Shown here piece after piece: positions 7,686-49,619 of a stretch of DNA of 64,000 nucleotides; within the stretch, counting starts at the first letter, position 1; every line of letters begins with the position of its first letter. The stretch comes from Picochlorum sp. 'celeri'. Taxonomy: Eukaryota; Chlorophyta; Trebouxiophyceae. A program made the translations under genes and the position numbers. The notes under the pieces are model-generated. The model was not told where the DNA came from, searched no databases, and was given only the letters and a program-made list of their open reading frames with translations. The DNA is taken from contig JAACMV010000017.1 in the NCBI GenBank assembly GCA_010909725.1, positions 496,001-560,000 on the forward strand. The letters run 5' to 3'.

Positions 7686-7785
7686 TATGAAACCGACGCT
7701 CTAACCAAGACTAAGCTAGGATGGCATGATCTCTGTTTGTGACGGAGGATGCCATCCGCCAGATTCGAACTGGCGACCTCCGGCT
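7686..7785 (-). tRNA. Circularly permuted elongator tRNA-Met (CAU)
   Basis: On the minus strand the 3' half comes first (7785..7750) and the 5' half second (7725..7686), separated by a 24-nt linker (7749..7726). Joining 5' half to 3' half gives a full cloverleaf. The acceptor GCCATCC pairs with GGATGGC (7/7), followed by discriminator A. The D-stem is GCTT/GAGC, the T-arm is GCCAG-TTCGAAT-CTGGC, and the variable loop is AGGTC. The anticodon stem TCGGT/GCCGG has G-U ends around loop TTCATAA, so the anticodon is CAT. The break lies between positions 37 and 38. The G1:C72 pair argues for elongator rather than initiator. The B-box-like T-loop lies upstream of the A-box. A T6 run at 7654-7659 ends the transcript. 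TTCA of the anticodon loop can pair with TGAA just upstream of the 3' half, as expected for a splicing helix. Confidence 0.9.
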
Positions 7786-7881
7786 GATTCAGTGTTGAGA
7801 CATTCTGTACAGTTCGAATTTTCTGTCCTAGACTGACTCAAATTTTGATTTTGTTTTCTTTTTAAGGAGAGGGACTAAGAG

Positions 7882-35752: not shown

Positions 35753-36000
35753 CTTGGCGATGCTCCCCTGGAATCAAACAGAATTAATACTAGTTACAGA
35801 GTACTTGCCTTGGTGCCTGGGACCTTGTATGGAAACAGAACCGTGTCTTAAGAACAATCAAGTCTGTCCTCCTATTGGGGTCCACGTTTGATGGGAAACG
35901 CCCAACCAATATCATTGTCCGATCGTAGAGTCCCATTCTTTGTGTTTTCTGATACCTACGCCCGTAACAGTATTTTAATCTCATCAAAAACATTGTAAAG

Positions 36001-36959
36001 ATGAGTAGGATTGCAGCTGATGAGGGTCGCCTTGTTTACGTGGGTAATTTGCCAGAAGACGTAAGAGAGCGAGATTTGGGGGACCTGTTCGAGAAGTATG
36101 GGAAGATTGTCCATATTGAGATCAAAATTCCTGCTAGACCACCGAACTTTGCCTTTATTGAGTACGACGATTGGAGGTACGTGCTTACGAGCCCTGATGA
36201 TTGGTGCTGATGAGCAGCCGCACAGAGATGACCCCCAGCACGCTATTGATTGGATGAAAAGGTACTAAAATGATCCTAAATTAATTTATTCCATTTTTCA
36301 GGGATGCTGAGGATGCCGTTCGGGGCAGGGATGGACGCGAGCTTTTGGGTGCACGCATGAGGGTCGAAATTGCCCGTGGTCGCGACAGGCGGGAACGGGA
36401 TAGGTTCCAGGACAGGAGAGCTCCACCTCCTACGACAGGATTTAGAGTGGTTGTTCGTGGTCTTCCTGCGAATGTGTCTTGGCAAGACCTGAAGGATTAC
36501 TTTAGAAAGGCAGCACCACCTGTGTACACTGATGTGAAGAGGTCCAGAGACGGACCGCTTGGCATTGTTGAGTTTGAGACTGGTGGAGATATGGACAGGG
36601 CGATCCGGGACCTGGATGGATCTGAATTTAGAAATCCGTTTGGGTCTGGAGTTATCAAGGTGATGGAGGATAAGCTTGGCCCACCACAGCGGGGCAGAGG
36701 TCCACCTCCCAGGGGACGCTTTAGATCACGCTCTCCCCCAAGGAGAAGACCACGTTCATACTCGCCAAGAGGGAGGCGTGGGGACTCGAGGTCGCCTTCG
36801 CCGCGGGGAAGACCTGACTCGAGATCCGTCTCACCAAGGAGATCACCTTCACCAAGGAGGTCGCGATCTCCAAGAGGAAGATCAAGGAGTGTGAGCAGAA
36901 GTCCACCCCGAGACTATAGTCCTCGGGCTGATGACAGGTACGAGGGACGGGAGGATTAG
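36001..36959 (+). CDS. SR splicing factor, SRSF1/SR34-like, 277 aa, two exons
   Basis: Exons 36001..36176 and 36302..36959; 125-nt intron, donor GTACGT, phase 2 (DDWR|DAEDAV). RRM1 has RNP2 LVYVGNLP and RNP1-like PNFAFIEY. The pseudo-RRM carries the diagnostic SWQDLKDYFR heptapeptide. The C-terminus is an RS domain (RSRSPPRRRPRSYSP and repeats). SRSF1-type proteins select splice sites by binding exonic enhancers, relevant here since donors are atypical. Confidence 0.95.
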
Positions 36960-37247
36960 GCTGCGAGCAGCCTGATACATCGTTTCCTCAGAAGGGGGTG
37001 GACTGACACTTGACAATGGCCCGAGATATTGGGCTTGACCGGGGCCACATGTTGCTATTGATTGTTTGCTGTAATAGTGTTTGATCTTGAGCTGTTGCTG
37101 CTGGAGCATCCTACCAAGCTTGACTTTGGATGGCGGAGCATGCAGTTTTCCTTTGTAACGATGAATTTCTGATCAGTGCTTCATGAACTGAGTATTCTAG
37201 GAATAAAGAATAAATATGCGATGAACGAATCATGAAGAATGATGGCG

Positions 37248-38364
37248 CTATTTTTGCCGATTGTCCTGTGTGATGTCGACAGACCATTGCCAAAGCCAGG
37301 AGACGAGAGCATCGTCATGGATGGATGGGTGTGGGGTCCCTGGTTCACAATTGGAGTCGATATAGCATACGTGAGCGTACTCTTTTGTATCAAAATTTGA
37401 GCTGGTAGCGCAGTACACAGTCGATCTTGCACCTGCGTGATGAAACAAATCAATGAATGAATCCTGAACATATGTAGTATACTGAACCTGATCACCTACC
37501 TTGGGCTGGTGTTAGTAAAAATAAACGCATAATCATTCTATATAAATGTTGCATAAAAAGCGGCAAGCTGCGAACGACATCGGTGAGCACCTCCCCTGGA
37601 TGAACACTCACACAATGCACGATCCCTGCATGCTTCCTGTTGCACTCCTTTGAGAACATGACTTGCGCCAGTTTACTCTGAGAATAGGCCACTAGAGAGT
37701 TATAACTACCCTTTAATTTCAAATTTGGATCATCTCTGTGGATTTTACCCATTCGATGCAACTTTGAGGACACGTTGATTATCCTCGCAGGCGCACCAGA
37801 CTGTTGCTGAGCCTTTGCCATCCACGGCATCATCAACTCAGTCAGCAGGAAATGCCCCACGAAATTCGTGCCCATATGGGATTCTAATCCATCTTTTGTC
37901 TCTGTTCGCGGAGCTGACATTGCGAACACTCCTGCATTGTTGATCAAAACATGCACAGGCATCTTGATCTTGCGTCCCCATGTCCCTGCAAATTCTCTCA
38001 CCGACTGCAACGATGAAACATCGAGCTGCATTACCTGCACCTCCCCTCTATGAGTATTTCCAAAACTTGCCCTCATTTCTTCGGCCAACTGCCTGCCTTT
38101 GTTCTCATTTCTGCATGCCAGAACCACATGCCAGCCTCTGCGATACATTTCTTGAGCAGTCTCCCTGCCAATGCCACTCGTTGGGCCTGTTACAATACAA
38201 TAGCGATCCTCTGATATCTCATCAATGTTTCCTTCCTGTCCAATATGCTCGAGAGACGGCAGACCCATCATCCACACCTTTTGAAAAAGCACTTCGACTG
38301 CAACCACCACCGTCTCCCACAACACCAGCCACCAGGTGCCATGGCACCGATGCTCCTCACTCAT
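37248..38364 (-). CDS. Short-chain dehydrogenase/reductase, retinol-dehydrogenase/TIC32-like, 349 aa, two exons
   Basis: Exons complement(37248..37432) and complement(37500..38364); 67-nt intron, donor gtaggt, joining LTPAQG to ARSTVYCA, the usual T-P-x-Q-G-A-x-T-x-x-Y-C ending of this subfamily. The Rossmann motif is TGPTSGIG; NNAG, catalytic Ser in INVSSKLH and Y-x-x-x-K in YSQSKLAQ are present. Residues 10-25 are hydrophobic and may anchor it to a membrane. Substrate is unknown. Confidence 0.88.
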
Positions 38365-38623
38365 AATACCTTATTATTGGTCTATAATGCGTCGAAGAGA
38401 CCATCCACCCCAAATATGGTGAAATCGCTGCGTCGCCACCGGGGAATTCGTCACACACTGTCGAAGCACCCGTACGACCGGTAATCACTCATCCACGAGA
38501 GAAATCCTATCGAGATGGCTCAATTCCCTAATACGGAGAGAATCTCTCGACATCCGGCATAAAACTTTCTCTAAAACACCATTGTATTCAATTGGTAAAG
38601 ATCAACATTTACACATAGTTAAG

Positions 38624-39663
38624 ATGCAGACTGCTTTGACTCAGAAATCCTGCGTATCTGGTGTGGCTGTGTCCACCAAGGCGAGAAACGCACCATCAGC
38701 CCGCAGAGCGGCAGTGATGGTCCGTGCCTCTGCCGATGAGGTATGTACCATATCATAGCAACATTCATTTTTATGTTTGAATCCTCACTTTCCAGTGGGC
38801 CTTGCGGGAGACTGGGGGATCACGCAGCAACATCTTTCCAAGTCTAGTGATGGATAAGGTGGATTGCAACGGAGATTGGAGGAGGCGCCTTTTCTCTGTC
38901 GGAAGTGAACTGCGTCTTCCTGCCGCCCATAAGCCCAGCAGTACCTCATCAAGGCTTCTACTGACGGAAGGATTCGATGAAAACCTTTTCTTGGATGCTG
39001 ACATGTTGATATGTTGTCCAGGTTGACCGTCGTGCCACCCTCGGAATGATGGCTGCCGCTGCCACTCTTGCTGGAGCAGCCCCATCCAAGGCCGAGTATG
39101 GTGACGCTGCAAGAGTTTTCGCATCCAAGATCACCAATAAGTCTGGTTTCATTCCATATGCCGGTGAGGGATTCGCCTTGTTGCTCCCATCCAAGTGGAA
39201 CCCATCCACTGAGAACGATTTCCCAGGAACCGTCCTCAGGTACGAAGACAATGGTGATGCCGTGAACAACGTCGTCGTCCTTCAGCAGAAGGTCGGAAAG
39301 GGTTCCATTGAGGATCTGGGTTCCCCAGACAAGTTCCTCCAGGACAATGCATATCTCTTGGGACAGAGTGCTGCCTTCACTGGAGACACAATTTCTGAGG
39401 GAGGATTCAGAAGGGGATCCGTTGCAGCTGCCTCTGTTCTCGATGTTGAGGAGGCCACTGACAAGAATGGAAAGAAATACTACAAATACTACGTCCTCTG
39501 CAGAACTGCAGATGGTGATGAGGGAGGTCGCCACCAGTTGATTGCTGCCACCGTGTCCAAGGGAGACTTGTGGTTGTGCAAGGTTCAGGTTGGAGACAAG
39601 CGTTGGTTCAAGGGAGCCAAGAACGAGGCCCTCGGATGCTTCAACTCTTTCACCGTCGCCTAA
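38624..39663 (+). CDS. PSBP: Photosystem II oxygen-evolving protein PsbP (OEE2), 252 aa, two exons
   Basis: Exons 38624..38740 and 39022..39663; intron 281 nt, donor gtatgt, phase 0. The bipartite leader has a stroma-targeting part (MQTALTQKSCVSGVAVSTKA) in exon 1 and a thylakoid signal with twin Arg (VDRRATLGMMAAAATLAGAA) ending SKA|EYGDAA. The mature protein shows YAGEGFALLLPSKWNPS and the C-terminal KGAKNEALGCFNSFTVA. PsbP supports Ca/Cl retention at the Mn cluster. Codon usage is strongly biased to C-ending codons, unlike neighbours, as expected for a highly expressed gene. Confidence 0.96.
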
Positions 39664-39736
39664 GCACAGTGAAAGCCATAGACTGGTCCCGGGATGGGTC
39701 TGGTACACTGCCTGAATCTCGAATCATGAATACAAT

Positions 39737-39750
39737 TTACAATGGTGTAA
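39737..39750. terminator. Back-to-back TGTAA poly(A) signals
   Basis: TTACA (39737-39741, TGTAA on minus for the LRR gene) and TGTAA (39746-39750, plus for PsbP) lie five bases or fewer apart between two convergent genes. Position-based assignment. Confidence 0.5.
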
Positions 39751-39775
39751 AATGATGTTAGTTCTCGCATGTGTT

Positions 39776-41179
39776 TCACTTTTGACCAGATGAATCAGTA
39801 GCTGCGCGGATCACAACCATGCTGGGTCGTGCTGTGTACAGAGCCTCCACAGCATCTGCAACCTTGTGCCCTTCAACATCCGGGTTGGCTGCAATCACGA
39901 GGGTTTGGAGGCAAGAAAATACGGATACTCCATGAGGACTCGCCAATCGAGAGAGGAGTGTGACCATACAATCCTCTGAAATATTATTGCCAGAGATGTC
40001 CAAATCCCTGAGGGGGTGAGCACCCTCTGCATGCACCTCCAGGGCACGTATCAAGGATTCTATGCCACGTGTCCCTAAATTACATCCATGAAGCCTCAGA
40101 GAGAGTACACGATGACAGGTGAGAACGTATGAGAAAAATTCATCGTGCCCCAAACCTATATTCTCACCAGCATCCAACTCCAAACCTTTTCCATCTGGCA
40201 GATGTGAGGCAGCTTCTAACAATGTAGACATGCTCCGTGCCGTCAAGCCGCAACCCGAAATATTGATATATCGTATATGGGGTATCTTTTGGGACCTCAA
40301 GCATGCAGCCAAAGAACAAACCCCAGCATCTTGGGCATCTGTATGGCTAATATCAATACTCTGTATTCCTGCTGGTAGGGCCTCAACGAGAGATGAAACC
40401 CCCTCTGGACCGAGAGGATTTGAGCTTAGTGATATTTTCTCCAGACAAGTGCAGTGAGAAAGCCCCTCAGCAAGCAATACTGCGCTGCTGGCATCCAACA
40501 TGTTGTGATCTAGCTCCACTCTCTTCAACGCAGATGCATTCCTCATGGCGACAGCCAACGCGGTCGATGATCTTGCACATCCTATACCACACGAATGAGA
40601 CACAAAACTCTCCAAAACTGACACACACGGAAGAACATCCTCCAGCCCTCCTTGCAAATCATTATGGGAAAGCATCAGGTGCCTGACAGATGTACTCTTC
40701 TCCACAGCCCTACATACAGCAGCAGCAGAGCTGCGAGTCAACCCTTTCCTCTCTAAATCTATTGTCGTGATACTCGTATTTTCCTCGAAACACCCGCATA
40801 ATTCAACCATGGCCTGCAACACATCATTGCAAGGAGTCCCTTGTGTGAGACAGCACCTCCAGGAAGCAGTCCTCCAGTCCTCCACCAAAATACCACGCAC
40901 CTCGTCTCCAAATGTCGAATTTCCTATTGAAATGAACTTGATGCTCTGGTTTGACTTCAACCCCGCCCCGAGGATACCAGCTATCCGCGGACTAATAGCA
41001 TGACTGCTCAGGTTGAGTTCAACAAGCGTCTCTGACCGCGACAGGGCATCAGCCAGCCTTCCCGCATCCTCCTCATTGAACCGACGGTGCCTCATCAGGT
41101 ACAAGGATGTCAAAGTAGCATCGTTCTGAGATATTCGTCTGACAATATCGTCAATCCCCTGAGACTGGGCCCCCCACAT
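39776..41179 (-). CDS. Leucine-rich repeat protein, ribonuclease-inhibitor/NLRC type, 467 aa
   Basis: Intronless. The ATG at 41179 is the first of the frame. About ten LRRs of the RI type follow (SRSETLVELNLSSHAISP, MLSHNDLQGGLED, LSSNPLGPEGVSSLVEALPA, DISGNNISEDCM). No kinase, nucleotide-binding or membrane part is seen, so it is a bare repeat scaffold. Binding partner is unknown. Confidence 0.85.
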   Translation of the reverse strand: MWGAQSQGIDDIVRRISQNDATLTSLYLMRHRRFNEEDAGRLADALSRSETLVELNLSSHAISPRIAGILGAGLKSNQSIKFISIGNSTFGDEVRGILVEDWRTASWRCCLTQGTPCNDVLQAMVELCGCFEENTSITTIDLERKGLTRSSAAAVCRAVEKSTSVRHLMLSHNDLQGGLEDVLPCVSVLESFVSHSCGIGCARSSTALAVAMRNASALKRVELDHNMLDASSAVLLAEGLSHCTCLEKISLSSNPLGPEGVSSLVEALPAGIQSIDISHTDAQDAGVCSLAACLRSQKIPHIRYINISGCGLTARSMSTLLEAASHLPDGKGLELDAGENIGLGHDEFFSYVLTCHRVLSLRLHGCNLGTRGIESLIRALEVHAEGAHPLRDLDISGNNISEDCMVTLLSRLASPHGVSVFSCLQTLVIAANPDVEGHKVADAVEALYTARPSMVVIRAATDSSGQK

Positions 41180-41425
41180 GCTTCCCACCAAACACCGGAT
41201 GCTATGCCTCGATGAATAAATAAATGCAAATGTAGTACATCAACCATGCATGCAGATCAAAAAAGGTACCATTCCAGATCGACCAGGTGGTCATCAACGT
41301 GGTGAATTCCCTTAGTTGATGAAGGCAATCATCCATCCTGGGAGGATGAGATCTTCATCAGAAGATACAAGCCACTGGCATGACCCATCCCATTCGCAAT
41401 TCCCATATAAAACTTTACTAGCACC

Positions 41426-44287
41426 ATGCCCCAGCCTCAGCCACCTATTGGTGGCAAACAAATGCTTCTGGACAAGAATACGAAACTGAGTGCTCAAGTG
41501 GCAACGCAGCGAAAGGAAATCAATGATTTGAAGGACAGGCTGCATAATTTAGAAAACGAAGAAATAAAATGGAAGGATACAGCTGCTTGTCTGACGTCTG
41601 TATGGGACGAGTTGAACTCATCGCTTGGCTTTTTGCAATTCAAGTACGTGGCCGTCTGTTATGGTGTCTTCTTGCTGATTCTTCCTTCATTGTTTACATA
41701 TGTTTATTCAGAGTCAATGAGAGTGCCGAGGTTGCACCCGCTGGGTTGGATGCGTCTTCTGCGAAAGCTCTTCTGGAGGAGACGAATCCTTTCCTGGCCC
41801 ATCTCCTTTCTAGGTACTTGCCAGACGATCCTGTGGCGGCCAAGTCGGCCAAGAACCTGGCAGATGATTTATCTGAGACGGAGAAGGCGCTTCGAAATAA
41901 AATGAAGGACACAATGGCCGTGGCTTCGTCCATTTTGAATGCTATAGAGGAAATGAAAGGAGCAGGGAATGGTGGAGGCAGCCTTCCTGGCTTTGAAGAG
42001 TCCAAGCTGGCAGCTCTTGTGAATATATTAAAGTCTGAGAATGGAAAATTGGTGAAGGATTCCCTGTCGGACTCGATAGCGATCAGGCAGCTGGAGGCAG
42101 ATATTGCTGATAAGGAAGCAGAGATACAAGTGCTGCATCGCAAGCTCGTGATGGAGAAGAGTGTCGACAGGGGTGGAGGGGATGTGGGCGTGTCTCGGTC
42201 GGAAGAGGCCCCAGAGGTGAGCAAAGGGGTGTCTCGGAATGGGTCTGAGCAGAAATTAGTGTTGGACCAAAAGGATGAGGCTGCACCTCAGGTGGAGGCT
42301 CTCAAGAAAGAGGTGGAGAAGAGGGATGGAGACATTGCTCGTTTGGAGAGGTATGTATTTCTTGCAAAATGTCTAAAAAGTAGTGCCGAAGTCTGGCGCG
42401 CTAATCCACTGCGCTAAGGCGACAGAACGAGACGAGCTCGTTCTCGCATAGTACCTCTATGAAAGAGGTCAGACTATATGACCCTCCCTGTCACGGGAGT
42501 CTAGAAACCGGAATCTAGGACGATTTTACTGTCCTAAATGCGGAATTTCGCCATCGCCTGCGGGGATCGAACCCGCGACCTCCAGATGACATCTGGGCGC
42601 CTTGGCGGCATAGTGCCGATGTAGAATTTTTGCTTGGTTGCATCCATGGGTGGTTGTGCGGCGCGTCGTCTCATCATGTCGTTCGTCTTGTTCTTGCAGT
42701 GAATTATACACGCTGAGGCGTGAGATGGACGCAGTGTCCGAGAATACAAAGATAGAGGTCGCGCAGCGCCAAGAAAAACTGGACCTGCTGACTGAAGATG
42801 TGGAAAGGGTGAAGCAAAAATTGAAAGATTCCTATCGAGAGCAAGATCGCCTGAATTCCAAGTTGCGGGATGCAGTGCGGGATCTTGAGAAAGGTCAAAG
42901 AGCTCTCAGACGTGAATCCAGGCTGGAACATGCAATATCGGAGCTGGAGGCACAGGTGAAGCGCCTTAGAACAGAGCGGAATGAGGCTGAACGTCAGTTG
43001 CAGGAATGCAAGCACAATGATTCCTCTCAGACTCGAGATGAGTTGCTTCAACAAATGCAGGGAATGGAAACAGAGATGAAGATGCTGAAGGATGCGGTTT
43101 CAAAGCACCAAAAGGCTGCCGAGGTTGTGGAGGAAGCAGACAAGCTCAAGTCTGCCCATGAGGTGGAGATTGCAGAGTATAGATCCCGGGTTGCTGACAT
43201 GAATAAGCAGGTGAGCGTTTCGATGGTTAAACTCAACGATTGGATTCAAAAGTATGTGGATCAAACAAAGGTCAATGAAGAGCTCCGCTGCTTCCTGGAA
43301 TTGTCCCAGGAGTATCTGGGAAAACATGAGACAATGGAGGCTAGCATCAGGGATGCCATACACGAGTACCTGAAAACGCAGATGTCGTCTTTGGAAAATC
43401 GGGTCACAGCAGCGATGAAAGAGTCGCGTTCAGAGAGAGAAAGAGAGATGACTCAAGAGATCAATGAGCTTCGGAATGAGCTCGAGGGCATCAAGGGAAA
43501 GCAGGCAGGCTTGCTTGCAGAGGTTGAAAAGGTCCGTTCTGAGAAGGCAAATTTGATGATCGAGGCAGATACGTTTTGGAAGGAAATGGATAGTGTCAGT
43601 GAGGCTTATGAAGCTTCGCGAGATCAAAATACAAAACTGCTGTCTGCCATGTCCAAGAGAGATGAGGACAATGCCAGACTTCTGAGTGAAGCGGCTGCTG
43701 CAGCTAGAGACAAAACAATCATGGAGGAGGACAGGGATATGGCGCAAAGAATGATGAAGTCTATGGAACAAAAAGCACAAGATGCGGAAGAAAGAGCGAA
43801 AGAAATAGAAGAAAGGTTTGATCGATTATCTAAAGAGCGAGATGTCTACAAGACGGATGTGCAGCACTCGAAGGAGCAAATAGAGTCTTTACAGAGCGAG
43901 GCCAAAGCTTTGAGAATTTCCATGGATGCATTAAGATCCGAATTATCGAACGCAAAGAAAGATATCGAGATGATAGAAGCTGACAAAGCAAAGCATTTGG
44001 CAGCATTGAAGTCTGAGAAAACAAGAGCTGATAGGGCAGAGAGGATTCTGTCAGGTAGAAAAGACCTGAAACTACAAGCGGGCGAAGAAGCGGAGAGGGA
44101 GGTACTGAGAAAGATGGTTAATTGCAGTGTCTGCTCGACACGTTTGAAAGATCGTATCATCACCAAATGCAATCATTTGTTCTGTTCTGCATGCATTGAT
44201 GTCAACTTGTCCAGCAGGCACAGAAAGTGCCCTGGCTGTGGAGAAAAATTTGGCGTGGGCGATGTGAAACCATTTTATTTTACATAA
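41426..44287 (+). CDS. BRE1: BRE1/HUB-type E3 ligase for histone H2B, 814 aa, three exons
   Basis: Exons 41426..41643, 41712..42350 and 42700..44287 (introns 68 and 349 nt, donors GTACGT and gtatgt). Joints keep frame (FLQFK|VNESAE; RLES|ELYTL). A long coiled coil fills most of the protein. The C-terminal RING is CSVC, TKCNHLFCSACID, CPGCGEKFG, then DVKPFYF, the BRE1 ending. BRE1 mono-ubiquitylates H2B during transcription. The second intron is unusually long because it contains a permuted tRNA-Arg on the other strand. The stop lies 17 bp from that of the convergent FUSED gene. Confidence 0.93.
42386..42587 (-). tRNA. Circularly permuted tRNA-Arg (UCG), nested antisense in a BRE1 intron
   Basis: On the minus strand the 3' half (42587..42552) precedes the 5' half (42423..42386) with a 128-nt linker. 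Rejoined, the acceptor GTCGCCT pairs with AGGCGAT (7/7, first pair G-U), discriminator G. The D-stem is GCGC/GCGC and the T-arm is GCGGG-TTCGATC-CCCGC. The variable loop is AGGTC. The anticodon stem CCAGA/TCTGG is perfect, around loop CTTCGGA, so anticodon TCG. The break lies between positions 37 and 38. A T5 terminator (42375-42379) follows the 5' half. The B-box (GGTTCGATCC) precedes the A-box. GGCA after the 5' half can pair with TGTC before the 3' half, a plausible splicing helix. Confidence 0.92.
42424..42551 (-). ncRNA. Hairpin-rich linker of the permuted tRNA-Arg
   Basis: The linker can form a chain of hairpins. H1 is AGAACGAG/CTCGTTCT (42424-42444). H2 is ATAGT-ACCTCT/AGAGGT-ACTAT with a 3-nt bulge (42448-42477). 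H3 is CTCCC/GGGAG (42484-42499), H4 CTAGA/TCTAG (42501-42518) and H5 AGGAC/GTCCT (42517-42535, sharing two bases with H4). It would be part of the pre-tRNA and presumably be removed by RNase P and RNase Z. Confidence 0.5.
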
Positions 44288-44304
44288 CTGTAACTTTTAT
44301 AACC

Positions 44305-48411
<4,107 letters not shown>

Positions 48412-48833
48412 CTATCAGGTATTATGTAATTCTATGTTGACATAAATCGCCCCTATCTATCGGTAAAAAAGCCACAACGTCACCACCCGAGTTGCAGTTA
48501 GAGTAACAGCGTCTTATTGTTTCTCTCTTCCAAGCCTATGGACCTTCTCCAGCATATAAAATCATTTATTCATTCATTCAATCATTATATATAGATGATT
48601 GTGACCCTATGGGTCGTTCTTCCGGCTGAATACAAGCATAAAAAGACACAGCCATGTGCTGAGTCGAACATCTCCCATCCAGTACATCTGTTGATAGGCA
48701 CAAAGACCGCATCTCAAAATAGTCTCGGCAAGACGCATGCCCTTTTTCCGATTGATGACACAACGCACTGCCCATAATGGCATGATAAATAATTGGATAG
48801 CGGCAAGGGCATCTCTCCTCGGAAGATATCTCG
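48412..48833. promoter_or_regulatory. Divergent upstream region, FUSED / small unknown gene
   Basis: 422 bp; a minus-strand frame of 126 codons overlaps here but shows no motif. Short ATTCATTC-type repeats occur near 48570. No TATA box is convincing. Confidence 0.4.
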
Positions 48834-49428
48834 ATGGGGACCAGCCATGCAGATGCAACGTCGTCATCCTCAGAGGATGACGAAGAATACGCCAAATTTG
48901 CATCCGTTGCTGTGAATGCAGAAGATGTAAGACGGCAGAGCGTGTCAATTCGGGGCAAGGGGGTTTCGGATGGTGGTGCGGGTTCCAGAAGGGGTTGCTA
49001 CAACCGTCTCAGAGGCCCTGTGGAAAAAGTTGGATGCGGGAATAGAATTCGGAACGATCAACCAGGACTCTAATCCTTCATGTTCGACACATCGTGATAC
49101 ACAGGGCTCTAGTAGAGTCGAGAGCAGCCCAGGGCTGCGTTTGTTTCGAAGGGGACCCACCGTCAAAGGTGACTGTACTCCTCGGAAGGAAACCACGAGA
49201 CACACTGCGCGCACGGAGAGCATACTTCCAAGAAGGAGGCAAATAGACCATGAAGGAATATCAATCAGTGATATAGAGCCTCTTATTGTGCTCGGGCAGG
49301 ATATCATGGTGGGCAGGCAGAGACAAAACCCACCTCCCAGTGTGGACATCCCCAAGGCCAAGAAACGGCGGATGCTCCGTAATTTTGAACTCTATAACAC
49401 TCCTATTGACGTAGAGGAATATTCATAA
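48834..49428 (+). CDS. Unknown protein gene with a homopolymer frameshift, about 197 aa
   Basis: The first frame (MGTSHADATSSSSEDDEEY...) is coding-like up to RQSVSIRGKG, then turns poor. A second frame from the same point (FRMVVRVPEGVATTVSEALW) runs to KRRMLRNFELYNTPIDVEEY and TAA at 49428. Dropping one G from the G5 run at 48959-48963 joins them. I do not recognise the family: an acidic Ser/Glu N-terminus, a short structured middle and a basic C-terminus. Confidence 0.55.
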
Positions 49429-49619
49429 ATACCATGATACTTTTTTTTTATTCTGCCTTGTATGATACGAGGGCTTCTACATTGTGAACAGATGTTTTGA
49501 AAGACCTGAGCTGAACATTGGCTCCGCCCTCAATGATGCGAGGATCGCTCTCTTCCCTACAGACATGAGCAAGTACGATACATTTTGACCCCAAAGTGCA
49601 CAACAGCCATAGATACAAT

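Follow-up and report, generated by a model that had tools for sequence, protein, structure and literature searches.

We propose that the 64-kb window (the whole stretch of DNA analysed here, part of contig C17) carries a working, circularly permuted nuclear tRNA-Arg(UCG) gene of type II, with its junction at 37/38, placed antisense in the second spliceosomal intron of a predicted BRE1 gene (probability about 85%). The two halves are read directly in the DNA: the 3′-half sequence lies ahead of the 5′ half on one strand, the last base of the 5′ half being G37 and the first of the 3′ half A38. The coordinates that the sequence-only reading had proposed for the gene (42386–42587, minus strand) proved exact to the base.

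Table 1. Features of the tRNA-Arg(UCG) locus and of a second permuted tRNA gene; positions are those of the 64-kb window.
Feature	Position	Strand	Remarks
BRE1-type RING E3 ligase gene	41426–44287	+	exons 41426–41643, 41712–42350, 42700–44287; 814 aa
BRE1 intron 2, with the whole tRNA gene antisense within	42351–42699	+	349 nt, GTATGT...TTGCAG
tRNA-Arg(UCG) 3′ half, A38–G73, first in order	42587–42552	-	36 nt; anticodon 3′ strand, T-arm, acceptor 3′ strand, G73
Insert between the tRNA-Arg(UCG) halves	42551–42424	-	128 nt; from sequence and fold
tRNA-Arg(UCG) 5′ half, G1–G37	42423–42386	-	38 nt; anticodon TCG
AAATTC upstream box, candidate promoter element	42624–42629	-	from AATTC counts in the 31-row tRNA table
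TTTTT, likely Pol III terminator	42375–42379	-	separated from the 5′ half by a 6-nt trailer
Leader stretch resembling a tRNA-intron remnant that ends at the 3′ splice site	42588–42615	-	28 nt; suggested by the 9-nt repeat and where it lies
Upstream copy of the 9-nt repeat TCGGCACTA	42611–42619	-	anticodon, G37, intron start
Downstream copy of TCGGCACTA	42381–42389	-	spans the end of the 5′ half
Permuted tRNA-Met(CAU), elongator-like	7686–7785	-	3′ half 7785–7750, insert 24 nt, 5′ half 7725–7686

Once rejoined, the halves form a 74-nt tRNA in which all four stems pair (acceptor 7/7 with a single G-U, 1:72; D 4/4; anticodon 5/5; T 5/5), bearing out the earlier claim of a perfect cloverleaf with a perfect anticodon stem. 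ARAGORN identifies the rejoined molecule as tRNA-Arg(tcg) and finds nothing in a linear reading of the locus. The conserved bases U8, A14, G18G19, U33 and TTC were recognized by eye, and the G1-U72 wobble of the acceptor stem also occurs in the tRNA-Arg(UCU) of the same genome. The D-arm and anticodon arm are closely similar to those of plant tRNA-Arg(UCG).

A strict finder, which requires the T-arm, acceptor, U8, D-arm, U33 and anticodon stem, returned two matches in the window, both permuted (Arg(UCG), and Met at 7785–7686), and none in 60 dinucleotide shuffles of the window (3.84 Mb). A relaxed version was noisy (17 permuted and 15 linear matches in 60 shuffles), and a short-gap pattern search gave two places, against two for a reversed control. 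Ordinary scans of the window overlook tRNA-Arg(UCG): ARAGORN reported no gene and Rfam no match at the gathering score.

The position of the tRNA gene on the opposite strand, wholly inside the 349-nt second intron of BRE1, is backed by the reading frame and by a collinear Nannochloris protein, which bear strongly, if indirectly, on the host intron. The frame of exon 2 meets a stop inside 42351–42699 and the RING exon opens downstream; the spliced product has its RING at the C-terminus. The Nannochloris protein P0004 (872 aa) aligns with residues 5 to 814 of BRE1 at 33% identity and is gap-free over the exon 2/3 junction at residue 286. Segment 42351–42699 is a probable spliceosomal intron, and the tRNA lies entirely within a predicted intron of a protein-coding gene. 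PDB chains with the names BRE1A, BRE1B and BRE1 also match the BRE1 protein, all within the part encoded by exon 3. The unit from box to terminator (42375–42629) accounts for 255 of the 349 nt, and the 94 nt that remain are close in length to the 68-nt intron 1. The latter (41644–41711), also proposed earlier, keeps the frame and has consensus splice sites, but is only one of 37 frame-keeping choices.

The phased diploid assembly of Picochlorum celeri has been described as 27.43 Mbp in 2 x 15 scaffolds with 46% G+C (PMC7225527); the assembly searched here holds 27,412,692 bases in 30 contigs, and the G+C content of the window is 43–50%. A 371-bp query around the tRNA found four genomic matches, two each on C17 and C8, corresponding to a segmental duplicate and to the homologous contig, and no dispersed copies. 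The halves are identical across the four copies, except for one added variable-loop base in one of them. When the assembly was searched with the rejoined 74-nt tRNA, eight half-matches came up, two per copy; all four copies are permuted, and no linear tRNA-Arg(UCG) was present among the matches to this query. The tRNA and BRE1 share a 13.7-kb segmental duplication in inverted orientation (window 35938–49619 versus C17:48811–62507, 99.4% alike), which is visible on contig C8 as well, over the 12.7 kb compared.

Signals shared with other tRNA genes were counted in a table of 31 rows (12 permuted and 19 linear), in which some other linear tRNAs of the genome are left out, three linear rows that fail the strict finder and are probably due to chance (L048, L066 and L069) are included, one row (L092) has only 24 nt of upstream sequence, and the half boundary of Ser(AGA) (L094), here as in the repeat counts below, is 9 nt off a later boundary: 16 of the 31 rows, and 8 of the 12 permuted ones, have an AATTC core in the 75 nt upstream (background 10%), and 26 and 11, respectively, have a run of at least four T in the 30 nt downstream (background 12%). 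The Arg(UCG) gene carries both; its upstream element, downstream T-stretch and terminator-free insert are putative signals, recognized by sequence only. A GGAAATTC-like box recurs 21–57 nt ahead of tRNA genes, linear and permuted alike (e.g., 42624–42629 and 7816–7821), and is a candidate Pol III promoter element.

The 128-nt insert is predicted to form several hairpins and its longest T-run is 3 nt; its minimum free energy is -45.2 kcal/mol, compared with a mean of -32.0 for 500 shuffles, none of which is so low (z -3.7). Ahead of the 3′ half, TCGG followed by 28 nt reads as the end of an anticodon and an entire intron. At least nine bases in common with the 5′-half junction of Arg(UCG) occur in 31 of 20,000 shuffled leaders; the leader repeat of the 11 other permuted genes measures only 4–7 nt, the 9 nt of Arg(UCG) being one case in 12. 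In a published model, permuted genes arise when an intron-bearing tRNA is copied in tandem and the outer halves disappear (PMC3978253), and the leader repeat appears to fit this tandem-copy model, a statement that we make with moderate confidence, 12 genes having been examined. Since the leader seems still to hold that intron, with an overlap of nine bases, we infer that an intron-bearing tRNA-Arg(UCG) probably gave rise to the gene: it would have been copied in tandem (or a circular precursor would have been inserted), and the outer halves would have been lost.

As for maturation, we infer that RNA polymerase III would start near the AAATTC box and transcribe the leader, the 3′ half, the 128-nt insert, the 5′ half and the trailer, in that order, stopping at TTTTT. 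The tRNA-splicing endonuclease would cleave before A38 and after G37, and a ligase would join G37 to A38, producing a circle from which RNase P and RNase Z would excise the insert at the acceptor stem, CCA being added afterwards. Transcription of BRE1 would run head-on, and the complement of the tRNA would leave with the BRE1 intron. It is a long shot that the circular precursor yields a stable 128-nt hairpin RNA besides the tRNA, and that head-on passage of Pol III through the BRE1 intron links the availability of the CGG-reading tRNA with how much H2B ubiquitin ligase is present.

The predicted folds tell against this scheme. The free fold of the precursor reaches -93.7 kcal/mol, against -79.6 with the cloverleaf forced (14 kcal/mol lower when free); in the free fold, the leader base-pairs with the 3′ half and a leader hairpin (CCAGATG-T-CATCTGG) rivals the anticodon stem. 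Even for the rejoined tRNA, the lowest-energy fold is at -34.1 kcal/mol and the cloverleaf at -29.5. Only an imperfect bulge-helix-bulge (hBH) can be drawn by eye at the junction: C32 can pair with a G at -3, leaving a 3-nt bulge (UC|A), and the central helix is mismatched, while free folding and cofolding favour rival hairpins. Modification, proteins or co-transcriptional folding could offset the unfavourable free fold.

It is this doubt about the free fold that holds the working-gene reading at the probability given above and leaves some room, small as it is, for a dead relic, i.e., a permuted tRNA whose transcription or maturation has ceased and which is retained since it lies in an intron. 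The precursor is able to misfold and one of the four copies has an extra variable-loop base, as might be expected of a relic; this base is, however, compatible with an uncorrected long-read indel, and the intact stems, the zero substitutions in the halves across the four copies, the presence of the upstream box and T-run and the failure of the assembly search to match any other tRNA-Arg(UCG) make such decay unlikely. Barely credible is the idea that the leader and the 3′ half form an ordinary degenerate linear tRNA, the downstream 5′ half being there by chance. The Rfam tRNA model does match 42555–42609 weakly (14.8 bits for a gathering score of 29; E 2.9), and the leader is able to form an anticodon-like hairpin, but the Rfam alignment omits much of the D-arm and acceptor stem, and by eye this stretch lacks U8, the D-loop GG and a proper D-arm or acceptor stem. 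We set this reading aside because ARAGORN finds no tRNA in the leader plus 3′ half, and the downstream 5′ half is complete, with a full D-arm, anticodon arm and 7/7 acceptor pairing.

The setting and the repeat can also be read otherwise. The tRNA would be intergenic if exons 1–2 and the RING exon were separate genes, and indeed the RING exon has its own ATG, where a metagenome protein (P0001, 520 aa) begins, and exons 1–2 on their own do not clearly resemble any solved structure (best E 0.04). The splice sites GTATGT/TTGCAG speak against such a division, which we consider highly improbable and set aside on the alignment of P0004, a single protein collinear with residues 5–814 and without any gap at the junction. 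The 9-nt repeat, for its part, might be the target-site duplication of an inserted mobile element instead of an intron remnant. Direct repeats about nine bases long flank many insertions, and the tRNA unit occupies most of a long intron; nevertheless, the anticodon and G37 lie in the repeat and would have to come from the target, and the 371-bp query gave no matches other than those in the segmental duplicate and on the homologous contig. On the grounds of the anticodon and of the lack of dispersed copies of that query, we set this explanation aside as quite unlikely.

The strict finder accepts at least 12 different permuted tRNAs in the assembly regions surveyed: Arg(UCG), Leu(AAG), Gly(GCC), Ala(UGC), Arg(UCU), Cys(GCA), Ala(CGC), Leu(CAG), Met(CAU), Ser(AGA), Ser(GCU) and Leu(UAA), the anticodons being read from the loops. 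The survey covered 88 regions (30+20+18+20), mostly on one contig per pair, around pattern matches that comprised 100 of 138 places from one search and 99 of 99 from another. With 11 further permuted tRNAs, the cell evidently handles genes of this type. The inserts of these eleven are 11–58 nt long, that of Arg(UCG) being the longest by far. Two permuted Leu tRNAs (L038 and L088; AAG and CAG) have the insert stretch CGGAGTTTCGAAATCGA in common, which suggests a single duplicated permuted ancestor. At two other loci (L044 and L055), the ORFs on either side fall into different Pfam families, which gives no hint of an intron setting there. The Met(CAU) gene of the window has an AAATTC box upstream and T6 downstream.

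The sequence-only reading went too far in making the CGN codons as a group dependent on tRNA-Arg(UCG), since a linear intron-bearing tRNA-Arg(ACG) (L079) exists; it is CGG, and perhaps CGA, that may depend on it. The 11 long ORFs of the window (7463 codons) contain 48 CGG, 61 CGA, 41 CGT and 34 CGC, indicating that CGN codons are in use.

It had also been suggested that permuted tRNA genes nested in introns are undescribed. In searches of open-access literature, outside which the 2007 and 2010 original papers lie, we found no report of a permuted tRNA inside a spliceosomal intron, and the suggestion would hold for the combination, each half of which is already known, from algae and from Caenorhabditis elegans. 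The table of a 2014 review (PMC3978253) contains 34 permuted tRNAs with inserts of 1–74 bp, mostly at 37/38 in green algae. The type II genes of Ostreococcus, Micromonas and Cyanidioschyzon described there have, like Arg(UCG), the 3′ half first and the junction at 37/38, and those of C. merolae likewise show an upstream element and a T-stretch after the 5′ half but none in the insert. The Arg(UCG) gene differs from these type II genes in its insert (128 nt versus 1–74), in its location inside a spliceosomal intron and in a leader that keeps an apparent tRNA intron (PMC3978253). In Auxenochlorella UTEX 250-A, another diploid trebouxiophyte, permuted tRNA genes are reported to have been found once the tRNAscan-SE set proved incomplete (PMC12633428). 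This program is described as targeting intronless genes or those with a canonical 37/38 intron (PMC3978253), and the tRNAs of Picochlorum SENEW3 are stated to have been annotated with it. In C. elegans, 44% of 609 tRNA genes are given as intronic, 56% of those in host orientation (PMC4999229), so that Pol III genes in Pol II introns, on the opposite strand as well, are known there too. What appears new is the union of permutation and intron nesting, together with the hairpin-rich insert and the leader resembling a leftover tRNA intron.

With at least 12 permuted tRNAs in one assembly, compared with at most 11 per species in the 2014 table (PMC3978253), this alga, provided that it is the P. celeri kept in culture, is a good system for studying their origin, transcription and maturation. 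The Arg(UCG) gene offers a testable case for the origin of permuted genes from tandem intron-bearing tRNAs, as well as a test case for Pol II and Pol III working in opposite directions in one short intron.
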